Part shown: positions 2,638 to 9,340 of the stretch, piece by piece
Layout of the letters: the number at the start of each line of letters is the position of its first letter
How positions within the stretch are numbered: the first letter of the stretch is position 1
Assembly: GCA_002355455.1 (NCBI GenBank)
Contig: AP017375.1
Coordinates: 1,240,001-1,304,000, forward strand
Direction: 5' to 3'
Source: Stanieria sp. NIES-3757
Lineage (GTDB): Bacteria; Cyanobacteriota; Cyanobacteriia; Cyanobacteriales; Xenococcaceae
DNA: 64,000 bases
Position numbers and translations under genes: made by a program
The notes under the pieces: generated by a model
The model's input: only the letters and a program-made list of their open reading frames with translations
Told to the model about the DNA's origin: nothing
The model's database searches: none

Positions 2638-4983
2638 ATGAGAATCGAAGACGACGAACTTAGAGAGTTATATAAAGCTTCTACCACTGAAAGAATTGGT
2701 AAACTCGAACAAGGCTTACTTCATCTCGAACAAAATCCCCAAGATGGAGTCAAATTAGAGGAATTATTGCGAGAAGCACATACCCTCAAAGGTGATTCGC
2801 GAATGTTGGGGTTAAATGAGATCGAAATGTTGATTCATCAACTAGAAGATTGTTTAGCTGCCATTAAACGAGGAGAAGAGACTTTCGATCCGCAAAATTG
2901 CGATCGCTATTATCAAGCTTTAGATGCTATTTCTCAGTTGGCTCATCAAGCTATTACAGGCGAAGAAGCTAATGTTAACACTTTCCAAGTTTTGGCTGCC
3001 TTAATGGGAGCAGAATTAGAGCTTGCTTCTGAATCAGAATCAGCCTCTTCACCAGAAGATGATTTGTTTGAGGATTCAACGCCAACCAAGACAGTTGCAA
3101 TCAAGGATTCAGATCAATTGTCTAAGGATGATTTATTGGGAGATTTCGCTTCTGCTGTTACGCCAACTAATATTACTCCTATTCAAGAACAAAAAACTAG
3201 TAATGTAAGCTCAGCTAGCGATCGCGTAATTGATACCATTCGAGTTGAACCAGAAAAATTAGATGCTTTGATGGCTCAAGCGGGAGAGTTAACTGTTGCT
3301 AAACAAAGAATTGCTACTCAATCTGATCAAATTCAGCAAATTAGCGATCTTTGTATGGAATTAAACCAAAATAAACGCAATTATAGGTTATTATTCCGTA
3401 AAATCGAACAAAGTTTAAATGCAGAATATCTCAAATTTTTTCATGATTTTTTGGCTCATACTCAAACAAGTTTAGAGCAGTTAGAAGCTTTAGTCGATCA
3501 ATTACAAGAGCGTAGCGAAGAGGATAGCACTAACTTAGATTTGGTGAGTAACCGACTAGAAAAAGGAATTCGCAACTTAAGACTTTTACCACTATCCAAC
3601 GTCTTCAATCTGTTTAATCGTTTAGTTAGAGATCTAAGTAAAGAGCAGAACAAACAAATTCAATTATCGATTGAAGGTGGTAATACTCTGGTTGATAAAC
3701 GAATTCTGGAAGAACTTAAAGACCCCTTGTTACATATTATTCGTAATGCGATCGATCACGGGATTGAAACTCCTTCAGAAAGACAAAATAAAGGAAAACC
3801 ACCAACTGCTACTATTCAGCTTCGCGGTTATCAAATGGGTAGTAGTGTCATCGTCGAAATCAAAGATGACGGCAGAGGATTAGATTTAGCACAAATTAAA
3901 CAAACAGCTTTACGAAGAGGAATTCATACCGAAGCAGAATTAGCTCAAATGAGTACCGAACAAATTCAAGCTCTTATTTTTGCCTCGGGATTTTCAACTC
4001 GTACCAGAGTTACTGATATTTCTGGCAGAGGTGTTGGTTTAGATGTTGTCCATGCTAATGTTGAAAAACTTAAAGGTAGTATCGAAGTAACATCTACTCC
4101 CGAACGAGGCTGTCAATTTAGTTTAAGATTAAGTAGCGCGATCGCCACTACAAAAGCCTTAATTCTCAAAGTCAATCAAAATGCTTACGCCTTACCAATT
4201 GAATTTGTTACTAAAATCTTACTGTTATCCCAACAAGAGATCTTTACCTTAACAGGCGATCGCACTATCCTAATCGATCAATGTCCAGTACCAGTAGCTT
4301 GGTTAGCGGATATTTTAGAACTTCCTTTAAATATTCCTGCCTTTGCGACAGTTAATAATACTAGCCACAAAAACATTCCTTGTATTATCGTGCGATCGGG
4401 GACAAAATTGATTGGTATTCTGATTGAAGAAATTCTGACGCAACAAGAAATTATTCTTAAACCTCAAAGTAAATTAATTCAACGAGTACGTAATTTTGCT
4501 GGAGCAACCATTCTAGAGAATGGACAGGTTTGCATGGTGCTAAATGCTCAAGATTTGGCATACTCTATCAACAAAAGTAGTCAAATTAATACGACTCAAC
4601 TTTTAGAATCCACTCAAACACAACCATCTCTATTGTTAGTTGAAGATTCGATTGTGATTCGTACTCAAATGAAACGCATTCTCGAAAGTGCAGGTTATCA
4701 AGTGACGACTGCGGTAGATGGATTAGATGGTTTTAATAAACTGAGACAGGGTAAATTTGATGGAATTATCTCCGATGTAGAAATGCCCAATTTGGATGGT
4801 TTATCTCTAACTGAAAGAATTCGTCAGTATCCAGAATATCGAGAATTACCAATTATTTTAGTCACTACTTTGGCTAAAGATGAGGATAAAAGTCGAGGTG
4901 CGCAAGCAGGTGCTAATGCTTATCTGACTAAAGGTGATTTCGATCAAACTTTACTGCTAGATACTCTGAATCGATTAGTTTAG
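2638..4983 (+). CDS. cheA: Chemotaxis histidine kinase CheA, hybrid with C-terminal receiver
   Basis: 781-residue CheA family kinase. An N-terminal HPt domain (about 1-110) carries the phospho-accepting His48 in REAHTLKGDSRML. After an acidic linker come the dimerisation helices (VEPEKLDALMAQAGELT, about 200-330), an HATPase domain with N box IRNAIDHGIE and glycine boxes DDGRGLDL and GRGVGLDVV, a CheW-like domain (about 505-640), and a receiver domain (about 655-775) with the acceptor Asp in IISDVEMPNLDG. It phosphorylates itself under receptor control and passes phosphate to its own receiver, CheB and other regulators. The fused receiver is typical of cyanobacterial taxis and pilus kinases. 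No separate CheY or CheW gene lies in the window. The ATG at 2638 is 49 bp after the receptor gene. Confidence 0.95.
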   Translation: MRIEDDELRELYKASTTERIGKLEQGLLHLEQNPQDGVKLEELLREAHTLKGDSRMLGLNEIEMLIHQLEDCLAAIKRGEETFDPQNCDRYYQALDAISQLAHQAITGEEANVNTFQVLAALMGAELELASESESASSPEDDLFEDSTPTKTVAIKDSDQLSKDDLLGDFASAVTPTNITPIQEQKTSNVSSASDRVIDTIRVEPEKLDALMAQAGELTVAKQRIATQSDQIQQISDLCMELNQNKRNYRLLFRKIEQSLNAEYLKFFHDFLAHTQTSLEQLEALVDQLQERSEEDSTNLDLVSNRLEKGIRNLRLLPLSNVFNLFNRLVRDLSKEQNKQIQLSIEGGNTLVDKRILEELKDPLLHIIRNAIDHGIETPSERQNKGKPPTATIQLRGYQMGSSVIVEIKDDGRGLDLAQIKQTALRRGIHTEAELAQMSTEQIQALIFASGFSTRTRVTDISGRGVGLDVVHANVEKLKGSIEVTSTPERGCQFSLRLSSAIATTKALILKVNQNAYALPIEFVTKILLLSQQEIFTLTGDRTILIDQCPVPVAWLADILELPLNIPAFATVNNTSHKNIPCIIVRSGTKLIGILIEEILTQQEIILKPQSKLIQRVRNFAGATILENGQVCMVLNAQDLAYSINKSSQINTTQLLESTQTQPSLLLVEDSIVIRTQMKRILESAGYQVTTAVDGLDGFNKLRQGKFDGIISDVEMPNLDGLSLTERIRQYPEYRELPIILVTTLAKDEDKSRGAQAGANAYLTKGDFDQTLLLDTLNRLV

Positions 4984-5003
4984 CTCAGTTACCAATATTT
5001 ACT

Positions 5004-6074
5004 ATGTCACCTATTAAAGTTTTATTAGTTGAAGATTCCCCTATTGCTCTGACAATCTTACAAAAAATTTTGGCTACTTCTCCAGAAATAACAGTAGTTG
5101 GTACTGCGAGTAATGGCATCGACGCATTAGAGCTAATTCCTAAACTAAAACCAAATGTCATTTGTACTGATCTTCAGATGGCAAAAATGGATGGTTTAGA
5201 ATTTACAAAACAAGTCATGGCTAAATATCCTAAGCCAATTTTGATCGTTAGTAACTCAGTACAGCAAAGCGATACCGAAAATATTTTTGAACTACTTCAA
5301 GCAGGCGCAGTTGATGTTTTTCCTAAACCAGTAGGTGGACAAGCTACGGAATACGAACAAGTCAAACAAAAATTACTCAACAAAATCAAAATTTTATCAG
5401 GAGTATCGGTCTTTACCAAACCCTTAAAAGACCACAATCATTCTAGTCGTACCACCAACCCAGGATTAACTCAAACAACTATTTGCTTTCCCTCTTCTGC
5501 AAATCTTAGTTCTCAGATTCGAGTTATAACTATTGGTGCATCTACGGGTGGCCCTCAAGCTTTAGCTAAACTTCTCAAACCTTTACCAAGCGACTTTCCT
5601 GTCCCAATTATTTGTACTCAACATATTAGCGAAGGGTTTTTAAGCGGGTTAGTTAGTTGGTTGGGGAGAGAGTGTAAATTAACCGTTAAAATTACTGAAC
5701 GAGGAGAAATACCTACACCAGGAACGGTTTATTTTGCTCCTGAAAGACATCATTTAGAAATAGATACCCAAGGAAAATTTTTTTATTTGGATCAGCCACC
5801 AGTCGATGGTCATCGTCCTTCTGTAACTGTTACTTTTAAAGCAGTTGCTAGACACTATAGTAGAGGTGCTGTTGGTATTCTTCTCACAGGGATGGGAAAA
5901 GATGGTGCAGAAGGAACAAAAGCGATCGCAGATGTCGGTGGTTTGACTATTGTTCAAGATGAAAGTACTTGTGTTGTCTTTGGAATGCCTAAAGAAGCGA
6001 TCGCTCTAGGGGCAGCACAACATATTCTTCCTCTTTCAGAAATTACGCCCTTTTTACTCAAAAAAATCTTTTAA
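5004..6074 (+). CDS. cheB: Chemotaxis protein-glutamate methylesterase CheB
   Basis: Two-domain CheB of 356 residues. The N-terminal receiver has acidic residues Glu10/Asp11 and acceptor Asp56 (VICTDLQM). The C-terminal esterase domain holds the triad seen as Ser180 in ITIGASTGGPQ, His207 in CTQHISEGF and Asp300 in LTGMGKDGAEG. It removes methyl groups from receptor glutamates and deamidates glutamines, resetting sensitivity when phosphorylated by CheA. It starts 20 bp after cheA and is followed by cheR, so adaptation enzymes and kinase are made together. Confidence 0.96.
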   Translation: MSPIKVLLVEDSPIALTILQKILATSPEITVVGTASNGIDALELIPKLKPNVICTDLQMAKMDGLEFTKQVMAKYPKPILIVSNSVQQSDTENIFELLQAGAVDVFPKPVGGQATEYEQVKQKLLNKIKILSGVSVFTKPLKDHNHSSRTTNPGLTQTTICFPSSANLSSQIRVITIGASTGGPQALAKLLKPLPSDFPVPIICTQHISEGFLSGLVSWLGRECKLTVKITERGEIPTPGTVYFAPERHHLEIDTQGKFFYLDQPPVDGHRPSVTVTFKAVARHYSRGAVGILLTGMGKDGAEGTKAIADVGGLTIVQDESTCVVFGMPKEAIALGAAQHILPLSEITPFLLKKIF

Positions 6075-6127
6075 ATTCTGTTGGTTTAGTTGCAACAAAA
6101 ATTTTTTAAGTATTAAAAATATTACTA

Positions 6128-7666
6128 ATGAGATCCAATCAATTGCTTAACGATAATCTTCTTGAAGCTTTTATTGTTTTAATTACTGAGCAAACAGGTT
6201 TAATTGTCAAAGAACGCGATCGCGATAATTTAAAACAAGAAATATGCAAAAGGACTCAATCTCTGAATCTACCATCACCAGAAAATTATTATAGATTACT
6301 TTCTACTATCTCTAATACTAATTCTTTAGAATGGCAGCAAATTATTAGTTTTTTAACTAATAACGAAAGTTATTTTTTTCGAGATACAGCCCAAATCGAA
6401 CTGTTAGAAAAACAAATTTTTCCAGAACTTATTCAACGTAAACAAACTACCAAAACTTTACGTATTTGTAGTGCTGGTTGTTCTACGGGAGAAGAGCCTT
6501 ATACTCTAGCCATACTTCTTAAAGAACTTATCCCCGATCTAGTTCAATGGAACTTACAAATTATTGCTCTAGATATTGATTGTGAAGCCCTCAAAAAAGC
6601 AGCAGCAGGAATTTATAGTTCTTGGTCTTTTCGAGGCGTAAAACCACGAATCAAACAACAATATTTTCAATTACAAAATAATCAATATCATCTCAATTCC
6701 GAGATTAAAGAGATGGTTAAATTTCAAAATATTAATTTAGTTAACGACTCTTTTGTTCAGGCTACTTGGGAATTAAATAATATCGATCTATTTATTTGTC
6801 GCAATGTTTTTATTTATTTTCCAGAAGATAAAATTGCTACCGTTTTAAATAAAATATATAATTCTCTACAACCTTTAGGTTATTTACTTACAGGTCATAC
6901 CGAATTAGCTGCTCAAAATTTAAGCTGTTTTAAAATTCAGGTTTTTGATGAGTCAATTATTTATCAACGTCCTGAATCAAATAGTCTTACTAATGCTTCT
7001 CCTAACTCAATTAGAATAACTCAACCTAAAACAGTTACAAACCAAATTGTTGATTTAGATCGAATTTCTCCTCAACAAGAAAAATTTAATCGATTAATTA
7101 ACTCCATTGAAAAATCTTTTCAGCAATCTCAGAAACTTTTATCTCATCCGTTGCCTAAAATCGAACCACCATCAATTAAAACTAATTTATCTTTATCGGA
7201 AATAGAACAACTCGTAGAACAACAACAGTACCAGTTAGCGATCACTCAATTACAACAACTAATTACTCAATCAACAAATCAAATTGATTATTATTATCTG
7301 TTAGCCAAAATTTATGCTGATACAGGCAAACACCAAGATGCGATCACAGTTTGTCAATCTGCTTTACAAATAGATTCTTTAGCTGTGTCAATTTATTATC
7401 TTTTATCCCAAGTTAAAGAAGAATTAGGTGATTTTATCGAAGCCAAAGAATTATTAAAAAAAATTATTTATCTCGATCAATTATTTATTGCTGCTTATTT
7501 AAATCTGAGTCAACTTTATCAACAGGAAGGAGATTTAAAAAGAGCTTTCAAAATGCAACTTGCTGCTTTAAATATTCTCAAACAATTACCTCAAAACCAA
7601 AAAATTTCAGGTATGGGTAATTTAACAACTCAAGATTTAATTTCTCAACTAGAGATAATTATCTAA
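6128..7666 (+). CDS. cheR: Chemotaxis methyltransferase CheR with C-terminal TPR repeats
   Basis: The first about 280 residues are a CheR S-adenosylmethionine-dependent methyltransferase: an N-terminal helical part, FLTNNESYFFRD, the SAM loop RICSAGCSTGEEPYTLAI, and LFICRNVFIYF. This part methylates receptor glutamates. A low-complexity linker (about 280-360) leads to tetratricopeptide repeats (about 360-490; for example YYLLAKIYADTGKHQDAI and YLNLSQLYQQEGDLKRA), a known CheR extension that probably mediates protein contacts. It is the last gene of the operon, 53 bp after cheB; a hairpin with a T run lies about 200 bp downstream. Confidence 0.94.
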   Translation: MRSNQLLNDNLLEAFIVLITEQTGLIVKERDRDNLKQEICKRTQSLNLPSPENYYRLLSTISNTNSLEWQQIISFLTNNESYFFRDTAQIELLEKQIFPELIQRKQTTKTLRICSAGCSTGEEPYTLAILLKELIPDLVQWNLQIIALDIDCEALKKAAAGIYSSWSFRGVKPRIKQQYFQLQNNQYHLNSEIKEMVKFQNINLVNDSFVQATWELNNIDLFICRNVFIYFPEDKIATVLNKIYNSLQPLGYLLTGHTELAAQNLSCFKIQVFDESIIYQRPESNSLTNASPNSIRITQPKTVTNQIVDLDRISPQQEKFNRLINSIEKSFQQSQKLLSHPLPKIEPPSIKTNLSLSEIEQLVEQQQYQLAITQLQQLITQSTNQIDYYYLLAKIYADTGKHQDAITVCQSALQIDSLAVSIYYLLSQVKEELGDFIEAKELLKKIIYLDQLFIAAYLNLSQLYQQEGDLKRAFKMQLAALNILKQLPQNQKISGMGNLTTQDLISQLEIII

Positions 7667-7888: not shown

Positions 7889-7943
7889 GAAGCAATGCCT
7901 AAATTAGCTTGCTCTAAATTTGTTTTGTGACCCAAAAAATAAA

Positions 7944-7989
7944 TGCGGTCTTGCATGACTAATTGTTTAAATTAATGCATTTGACCGCA
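7944..7989. promoter_or_regulatory. Long inverted repeat just upstream of the oxidase gene
   Basis: TGCGGTC (7944-7950) and GACCGCA (7983-7989) are exact reverse complements. Inside them GCAT (7953-7956) pairs with ATGC (7975-7978). The structure ends 8 bp before the oxidase ATG and may be an operator, an RNA hairpin covering the ribosome site, or a remnant of a small repeat. No Shine-Dalgarno sequence is visible between it and the ATG. Confidence 0.4.
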
Positions 7990-7997
7990 GGTGTTTA

Positions 7998-8930
7998 ATG
8001 AATTGTTTTGTGATTCTTATGGTCAACAAAAATAACATAGATTCTGCTCAAAAACAAGCAGAAAATATTGTCTTTACTACTCAATCAGAAGATCGCCAAA
8101 AACAATCCGATCTAATGAATCTTGAGTGGGCGCAGATTGCTCCAAGCAAAGTAGTAATAGCAACCAAAAATCGTGCTTGGTTGTATCAACCCCATTCTGC
8201 TGAGGATCGCTTTTCTCAACCGATGGCATGTGCTGGGAGTAATGCGACTACTCGAAACTTATTAGATACAGCGATCGCAACTGCTAAATACACTATCAAG
8301 TCTAATGTTAGACCACCTAGCTTAACTCCCATACGGTGGGTGTGGCGATTAGCTAGTGTTTACCATCTGACTTTTTCTGTCCCCGAACTAATGGAAAAAG
8401 CTGCTGCGAATTTTGCTGCTGATAATCATTTTCTTTTAGCACAATGGGCTTTACAAAAAGCAAAAGAGGAAAAAGGTCACGCTCAATTGGCTTTGCTCGA
8501 CATCGAATCTTTGGGATACGATGCTGAAGCAGTTGTGAAAGCATTTGTTCCTGCTGCTGCGGTCAATTTGATTGATTACTTAACTCGCAGCGCACAAGAT
8601 AACAATCCCATCGATTGTGTTGGCTACTGTTATACAGTGGAACGCATAGCTGTCGGTCTTGGAGAGGATTATATCCAAAGGATTGAAGCATTATTACCAC
8701 CAGAAACTAATGCTACCCGATTTTTGCGTGTACATAGTTCCGTTGGTGCTGATGCAGAACACGTAGACGAAAATGCCTCGATGATAGCGCAGCTTACTCC
8801 CTCGGAACGGACTCGTATAGCGCGAGCTTGTTACGAAACTGCATTAATGTGTTTCAGTCCCCCACCTGAAGCCTATATTTCGGATGAGGAACTTAAGCAG
8901 ATTCTGCAACCATTAAAGCTCAATCAATAA
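7998..8930 (+). CDS. Heme-oxygenase-like (TenA/PqqC-fold) metal-dependent oxidase, function unknown
   Basis: 310 residues (303 if the in-frame ATG at 8019 is used). The last about 190 residues are helical and carry a ligand-like pattern of the heme-oxygenase-like diiron oxidase superfamily: Glu157/Glu158 and His161 in KEEKGHAQLALLD, Glu215 in CYTVERIA, and His246, Asp252 and His255 in VHSSVGADAEHVDE. Members with known roles include PqqC, chlamydial CADD and SznF-type enzymes. The first 110 residues form an unassigned extension. No heme biosynthesis, thiamin or PQQ genes are nearby. The neighbour 166 bp downstream is a 48-residue acidic peptide gene, which makes a peptide-modifying role possible (inference). 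Membership of the superfamily is likely; substrate and metal are unknown. Confidence 0.75.
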   Translation: MNCFVILMVNKNNIDSAQKQAENIVFTTQSEDRQKQSDLMNLEWAQIAPSKVVIATKNRAWLYQPHSAEDRFSQPMACAGSNATTRNLLDTAIATAKYTIKSNVRPPSLTPIRWVWRLASVYHLTFSVPELMEKAAANFAADNHFLLAQWALQKAKEEKGHAQLALLDIESLGYDAEAVVKAFVPAAAVNLIDYLTRSAQDNNPIDCVGYCYTVERIAVGLGEDYIQRIEALLPPETNATRFLRVHSSVGADAEHVDENASMIAQLTPSERTRIARACYETALMCFSPPPEAYISDEELKQILQPLKLNQ

Positions 8931-9096
8931 CTATAGGGAAGGCTAATCTTTACCTCTTTATAAGTAGCTCGGCTTAATTAAACATCAAAAATTTTGTAGC
9001 TATAACAATAGATCGTTTTAGCGATTCTACAAATAATTAGGTTGACTTTCTTATCACCTGCAAACTAAGAACAAACATTAAGGAAGGATAATTAAA

Positions 9097-9243
9097 ATGA
9101 ACACTGCAACAATTACTCCAATCAAACCAGTTGAAAATAGCTTAGACATTTTAAATGAATTTGGTCTTGAAATCGATTTAGAAAGTATCTTGATTGAAGA
9201 ATACGAACTAGAATTAGCTAGTGACATTGGCATCGGTCTTTAA
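9097..9243 (+). CDS. 48-residue acidic peptide, possible modified-peptide precursor
   Basis: A short ORF from ATG 9097 to TAA 9241-9243, with a strong ribosome site AAGGAAGGA at 9080-9088, 8 nt before the start. The product has a neutral N-terminal part (NTATITPIKP), then an acidic amphipathic stretch (LNEFGLEIDLESIL), one Tyr in EEYELELASD, and the C-terminus IGIGL. It has no Cys, no signal peptide and no membrane helix. Size, acidic leader-like region and glycine-containing tail resemble ribosomal peptide precursors, and it follows a heme-oxygenase-like oxidase. An inverted repeat closes the unit downstream. Alternatives are a small regulatory or structural protein. The ORF looks real because of the ribosome site and codon use; the function is inference. 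Confidence 0.65.
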   Translation: MNTATITPIKPVENSLDILNEFGLEIDLESILIEEYELELASDIGIGL

Positions 9244-9276
9244 TCAATTTGCACCATAATTCAAGAATCAAGAACA

Positions 9277-9340
9277 ATTCTTTTGGGTTGCAATCTTAGC
9301 TTCGCTGAGGCGCAAAGCGATCGCTTAGTTCCAAAAGAAT
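9277..9340 (+). terminator. Inverted repeat ending the small-peptide transcript
   Basis: ATTCTTTTGG (9277-9286) and CCAAAAGAAT (9331-9340) are perfect 10-bp complements. The loop contains a HIP1-centred dispersed repeat (9288-9324). There is no long T run, so it may be a processing or stability hairpin rather than a classical terminator. Confidence 0.45.
9288..9324 (-). repeat. HIP1-containing dispersed repeat, copy A
   Basis: The reverse complement of this 37-bp stretch matches 32485-32521 at about 31 of 37 positions. Both copies start with GCGATCGC, share TGCGCCTC and end in AGATTGCAA. It looks like a short dispersed palindromic-type element. Confidence 0.55.

Follow-up and report, generated by a model that had tools for sequence, protein, structure and literature searches.

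A candidate RiPP-like oxidase-peptide cassette in cyanobacteria and its putative STAND partner

A 64,000-nucleotide stretch of the Stanieria sp. NIES-3757 genome (contig AP017375.1, positions 1,240,001 to 1,304,000; here called the window) carries a compact operon that, in our assessment, is fairly likely to encode an HDO-family non-heme dimetal oxidase together with its ribosomal substrate peptide, i.e., a minimal RiPP-like tailoring pair. The best reading of this cassette is as an undescribed RiPP-like family with an HDO as its sole tailoring enzyme. A RiPP calls for a dedicated precursor gene linked to a tailoring enzyme, and the cassette has one. An RRE leader-binding domain, which is common in RiPP systems but not obligatory, was not detected in the oxidase; for this reason, and because we infer from sequence that the oxidase modifies the peptide, we regard the cassette as a candidate RiPP only. 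The principal features of the pair are as follows (positions are those of the window).

7998..8930, + strand: HDO-type oxidase gene; 310-aa open reading frame, with the start likely at ATG 8019 (303 aa)
E158, H161, E215, H246, D252, and H255 (310-aa numbering): predicted metal ligands of the oxidase, from alignment columns
9080..9088, + strand: Shine-Dalgarno region of the peptide gene, AAGGAAGGA, read from the sequence
9097..9243, + strand: candidate precursor gene for an acidic peptide of 48 aa, MNTATITPIKPVENSLDILNEFGLEIDLESILIEEYELELASDIGIGL; IKPVENSLDILNEFGLEIDLESILIEEYELELASD is conserved, whereas the last ~5 residues form a variable C-terminal tail

Both open reading frames lie on the + strand, 166 bp apart, where the preliminary description of this locus had placed them, and its assignment of the first product to the heme-oxygenase-like proteins was borne out. 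The oxidase matches the Pfam model PF14518 (Haem_oxygenas_2) above the curated cutoff (E = 3.1e-8; 34.1 bits against 28.9), and 18 of 24 family members match the model at E <= 10. Among solved structures, the PDB entry 3dde is closest to the oxidase in sequence (family-profile E = 2.2e-14); the sole other PDB relative, MboA, is a weak one (profile E = 0.1). The 3H/3C motif, E158-x2-H161, E215, and H246-x5-D252-x2-H255, is invariant or nearly so across 24 homologs. Loss of ligands is confined to the tandem second copies L050b and L076b (L050 2070-2900 and L076 318-1223), each of which adjoins an intact copy and which may be pseudo-enzymes. The first motif and the second-helix carboxylate align with E86, H89, and E143 of MboA, the MboA ligands H172, D176, and H181 falling outside the aligned stretch, and the third motif aligns with H-x3-D-x2-H of 3dde with two residues inserted. 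On the sequence features tested, the oxidase thus belongs to the HDO superfamily and has a predicted metal site.

The model of the core is in line with the sequence evidence, to which it adds little on its own. This AF2 model (pLDDT 69), compared with solved structures for the seven-helix HO-like bundle expected of HDOs, has 3dde as its best Foldseek match, with a probability of 1.00 but an E value of only 0.012, and its VIA Z score against 3dde (9.8) lies inside the range of generic helical bundles. The full-length model is poor (pLDDT 43; shallow alignment), with a beta region predicted in the ~75 residues N-terminal of the catalytic bundle. The bbb-aaa order in that poor model gave rise to the idea of an RRE fused to the oxidase N terminus, which was rejected (hhalign probability of 0.3% against 22 PqqD-type domains); no PqqD match was found in any member of the oxidase family. 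Identity with CADD was likewise rejected (TIGR04305 score of 23.8 bits against a curated cutoff of 200). No homologs were found in viral contigs, and neither the oxidase nor the peptide matched a PADLOC defense model.

The oxidase probably starts at ATG 8019 rather than at 7998, because relatives without the 7998 ATG keep the preceding 21 nt as conserved noncoding sequence; the stretch GAATTGTTTTGTGATTCTT is conserved 5' of ATG 8019 even in loci without an upstream ATG. Inverted repeats had been reported on both sides of the gene pair, and the two differ in standing.

7920..8021, + strand: conserved 5' cis-element, consisting of TTGTTTTGTGA, an A-rich stretch, TGCGGTC (7944-7950), a variable inner stem-loop, GACCGCA (7983-7989), and TTTAATGAATTGTTTTGTGATTCTTATG
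9277..9340, + strand: 3' hairpin-forming sequence (RNA fold z = -2.4); possible transcript end

The upstream repeat (7944-7989; TGCGGTC/GACCGCA; fold z = -4.9) forms the core of an element of ~100 nt that is kept in ten aligned loci, in which TTTTGTGA, an A-run, TGCGGTC, a variable stem, GACCGCA, and AATTGTTTTGTGATTCTTATG at the start codon follow one another. RNAalifold recovered a 7-bp outer stem from these loci, with pairing kept via G-U changes and two both-sided changes, and the individual elements fold with z scores of -1.7 to -5.3 even where their inner stems are unlike in sequence. Because outer-stem pairing is kept and the divergent inner stems remain foldable, the evidence leans towards an RNA stem, with a DNA operator as the alternative. 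With up to two mismatches allowed, the start-adjacent segment occurs just once in the window genome, and an Rfam search with the element gave no match near or above the gathering score. The downstream repeat (9277-9340) does fold but is absent from the sister-species locus L059, where the 3' flank is different, and it is probably an ordinary hairpin.

The 48-aa open reading frame is a real gene: Shine-Dalgarno sites of the AAGGAGAAT type precede nearly all of its homologs, which are under purifying selection (dN/dS of about 0.24 to 0.36, or roughly 0.2 to 0.4). No match to the peptide was found in Pfam or NCBIfam. Mean pairwise identity is 0.50 to 0.56 over residues 9 to 43 versus 0.31 over the last five residues, a profile that has the RiPP-like pattern of a conserved leader and a more variable core. 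Two clues that had been read from the single window sequence did not hold among homologs: the IGIGL tail is not kept, and most of them have Phe or Leu in place of the lone Tyr, so that the idea of a single catalytic Tyr was rejected. No tail residue that could be singled out as the site of modification is common to all precursor types.

We examined 30 oxidase loci of the subfamily, from Pleurocapsales-type and Nostocaceae-type genomes and including two on Nostoc plasmids. A peptide gene adjoins the oxidase in all 30, as established by a peptide profile and by direct reading of the remaining loci; none of the examined oxidase loci of the subfamily is without one. Whole-genome profile searches returned 22 peptide matches in 14 genomes among 100 relatives and 7 matches in 4 genomes among 386 genomes of the phylum, and every match adjoins an oxidase, so that no peptide homolog was seen elsewhere in either set. 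The co-occurrence across cyanobacteria, which the preliminary description had left to be checked, is thus strongly supported (Fisher P = 1.5e-14 for the relatives and 5e-9 for the phylum, shared ancestry being ignored in both). Neither of the two sequence-level findings that the preliminary description had named as refuting, oxidases with no small gene beside them and peptide homologs apart from the oxidase, was encountered. The profile was needed for this result, as the window peptide used alone as a query of the phylum retrieved only noise besides itself, and a simple open reading frame filter skipped peptides at several loci that the HMM search picked up. The flanks of the window locus have no other gene in common with those of the sister species and two further relatives, so that the adjacency stems from selection or joint transfer rather than from overall synteny. 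Of the 378 locus pairs, 42 have any further neighbor in common, some of the neighbors counted being precursor genes. More distant HDO homologs lack such a peptide; a distant HDO homolog in another cyanobacterium (L094 7195-8052; SEADEEIGHEILALRDLEALG) has neither a peptide nor a STAND gene nearby.

The view that the locus holds no other relevant genes is true locally but incomplete, because a co-inherited STAND gene exists, a homolog of which is encoded elsewhere in the window genome. In about 19 of 30 loci, a gene for an HTH/NB-ARC/WD40 STAND protein of ~1,175 aa lies convergently after the peptide gene.

L060-L075, L087-L092, L103, and L104: loci with a linked STAND gene
G000:C1:2462819-2466340 (locus L105): unlinked STAND homolog of the window genome, 1.2 Mb from the cassette

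The protein has a weak N-terminal HTH (HTH_19; E = 0.03), an NB-ARC ATPase domain (E = 1.9e-14), and WD40 repeats; on the two Nostoc plasmids it is annotated as an NB-ARC domain-containing protein. All 25 STAND proteins of oxidase genomes form one clade (SH-aLRT 98) together with one from a draft genome that lacks the oxidase, and within this clade fall the window-genome homolog and the best homologs of the five other oxidase genomes checked in which no STAND gene is linked. In 14 genomes lacking the oxidase, no STAND protein exceeds 54% identity with the query. Oxidase and STAND distances are correlated (Spearman 0.52; 0 of 2,000 permutations as high), a correlation to which shared species history contributes. 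On this sequence evidence, a distinct HTH-NB-ARC-WD40 STAND clade is co-inherited with the oxidase-peptide pair. A common operator for the two genes was considered and rejected, as the motif of the oxidase 5' element was not seen upstream of STAND genes.

This partner raises the possibility of a conflict or peptide-signaling module, in which the STAND protein would sense the peptide, modified or not, and switch transcription or cell fate, the oxidase licensing or inactivating the peptide. The convergent STAND gene, plasmid cases included, the single clade that tracks oxidase presence even where unlinked, and the distance correlation all speak for such a module, as does the occurrence of the cassette at nonsyntenic sites and on plasmids, as is often the case with conflict genes. 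On the other hand, the only defense-model match is that of the STAND protein to one repeat-type model in PADLOC, a known toxin or nuclease is absent, the HTH call is weak, and such STAND proteins are abundant in cyanobacteria. We consider this module unlikely on balance while giving it appreciable weight; it overlaps with the substrate reading and is not a full alternative to it.

Across 28 loci, the gene families that recur in the flanks comprise the oxidase, the STAND protein, the precursors, AraC-type regulators, and a few others. YcaO or TfuA proteins were not identified among the annotated flank families of these loci (part of the families being annotated), and no protease or exporter conserved in the cassette was found. 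AraC-type regulators lie upstream of the cassette in L071 (3703-4437), L072 (8550-9257), L073, L074, L075, L087 (3978-4652), L103, and L104, i.e., where precursors are long or bear a signal, and on the Nostoc plasmids; PF12833 was matched in all three that were tested. Small related proteins are encoded directly upstream of the oxidase in L062 (9167-9481), L066 (1760-2155), and L070 (10673-11005), the first of which is a ribbon-helix-helix protein by Pfam. In the window itself, an apparent chemotaxis set (a CheA-like kinase with a receiver, a CheB-like protein, and a CheR-TPR protein; 2638-7666) precedes the cassette and is absent beside the relatives' cassettes compared.

Precursors come in three architectures, two of which have N-terminal membrane or signal-like segments. 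Oxidase genomes without a match to the short-peptide profile (e.g., G387, G389, G392, and G278) encode at the same place a precursor of ~97 aa that begins with a hydrophobic segment and ends, e.g., in EEIKLDKEWEGILGSEPEQEVLLARGV; its sequence link to the short type is weak, IxLDxxWxxIL alone being in common. Loci L073, L089, L092, and L104 encode a precursor of ~145 aa whose N terminus is signal-like and whose end, e.g., IELDLDSILDTEFEQKGAILISRCCF, clearly has the segment xIELDLDSILxxEFE in common with the short type. Locus L103 has a short-type and L104 a ~145-aa precursor; that of L103 (8897-9187) has repeated N-terminal units of the METTPATVIERQS type followed by a standard short-type end (EIDLESIMLREFARGLPSDIDGGDL). 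The oxidase tree and precursor type agree. Peptide genes also occur in tandem, with two in L060 and L050 and three in L061.

These variants bear on the proposal that the peptide is a small regulatory or stabilizing subunit, or a substrate-delivery scaffold, of an oxidase whose substrate is a small molecule. Strict adjacency and purifying selection would be expected of a subunit too, and the lack of a conserved dedicated protease or transporter agrees with one. However, some loci have two or three peptides per oxidase, membrane or signal-like segments in two of three architectures are odd for an enzyme subunit, and conservation within the peptide is lowest in its C-terminal tail. A substrate would account better than a subunit for the tandem peptides and for precursor types that co-vary, and we judge the subunit proposal improbable. 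Coincidence, meaning a chance open reading frame or an unrelated small gene 3' of an oxidase that acts on a cellular metabolite, can draw on the commonness of short open reading frames and on the peptide-less distant homologs but is refuted by the co-occurrence, the selection on the peptide, and its absence elsewhere, and we assign it a next to negligible probability.

Under the preferred reading of the peptide as substrate, the conserved 5' hairpin element would govern expression of the operon, and the oxidase would recognize the middle of the peptide (VENSLxxLNxFgIExDLxxILxEEF). With O2, the diiron (or Fe/Mn) site of the enzyme would oxidize a residue of the variable C-terminal tail by desaturation, decarboxylation, or hydroxylation. 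The peptide may coordinate Fe1 through its C-terminal carboxylate, in the manner of the tripeptide substrate of MboA. For a sensor or effector of the modified product, or for a regulator of the operon, the STAND protein would be the prime candidate. Points against this reading are the RRE that was looked for and not detected, the lack of a conserved protease or exporter, the absence of a tail residue common to all precursor types, the weak sequence link of the ~97-aa precursors to the short type, the two residues inserted in the third ligand motif relative to 3dde, and the poor full-length model. A more specific proposal, for which we see a rather slim chance, is a three-gene signaling or immunity module in which a dedicated HTH-NB-ARC-WD40 STAND receptor would respond to the HDO-oxidized ribosomal peptide as its ligand or guard signal. 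If true, it would represent a RiPP class with an HDO as the only tailoring enzyme and an Apaf-1-like (NB-ARC plus WD40) bacterial receptor with a posttranslationally oxidized peptide ligand.

The heme-oxygenase-like dimetal oxidases (HDOs) form a young superfamily, for which >10,000 members are predicted but known substrates are few (PMC13108848). The presence of an enzyme, its encoded substrate, and natural substrate variants in a compact cassette would allow direct deorphanization by coexpression, and the cassette could yield a one-enzyme tool for oxidative peptide tailoring. Through its STAND partner, the cassette further hints at what might serve as a ligand for bacterial NB-ARC/WD40 proteins, a large orphan class.

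For the modification of ribosomal peptides by HDOs, PMC13108848 cites one study only, the VarO work. In the literature searched, we found neither a RiPP family with an HDO as the sole conserved tailoring enzyme nor an HDO-STAND association; most subscription journals were outside this search, and such absence is therefore no proof of novelty. The cassette partner, whether convergent or unlinked, belongs to the cyanobacterial HTH-NB-ARC-WD40 STAND proteins, among which its clade is distinct; the same literature offered no function for them. Nearest to the oxidase by both sequence and Foldseek is 3dde (Sden_3740 of Shewanella denitrificans), a heme-oxygenase-like fold protein of unknown function; the window oxidase differs from it by an N-terminal extension of ~75 residues and by two residues inserted in the H-D-H motif. 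CADD, PqqC, and TenA have the broad fold in common with it; CADD acts self-sacrificially on its own Tyr (PMC13108848), whereas a conserved Tyr is absent from the peptide.

Closer parallels come from two systems. VarO is a heme-oxygenase-like protein of the thiovarsolin RiPP cluster, in which gene deletion suggests desaturation of a precursor residue (PMC6511847), and it resembles the cassette in that an HDO is encoded with a ribosomal peptide. However, the VarO cluster has repeated cores and includes YcaO and TfuA, VarO being accessory to it, whereas no tailoring enzyme other than the oxidase is conserved in the cassette, which has a STAND partner; no relationship was detected between the two peptide families. 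The mangotoxin acetylenase MboA (PDB 9YPI, 9YPL, and 9YPM) is an HDO that acts on Leu-Ala-Arg with the C-terminal carboxylate on Fe1, desaturating the side chain (PMC13185094). It has the E-x2-H first motif and the 3H/3C set in common with the oxidase but is only weakly similar to it, uses a nonribosomal tripeptide, and needs the redox partner MboB; its Asp90 corresponds to Ala162 in the window oxidase and to Asp in most relatives of that oxidase. By analogy, MboA is the best structural precedent for a putative oxidation of the peptide tail, and together with VarO it provides the nearest precedents for the cassette.
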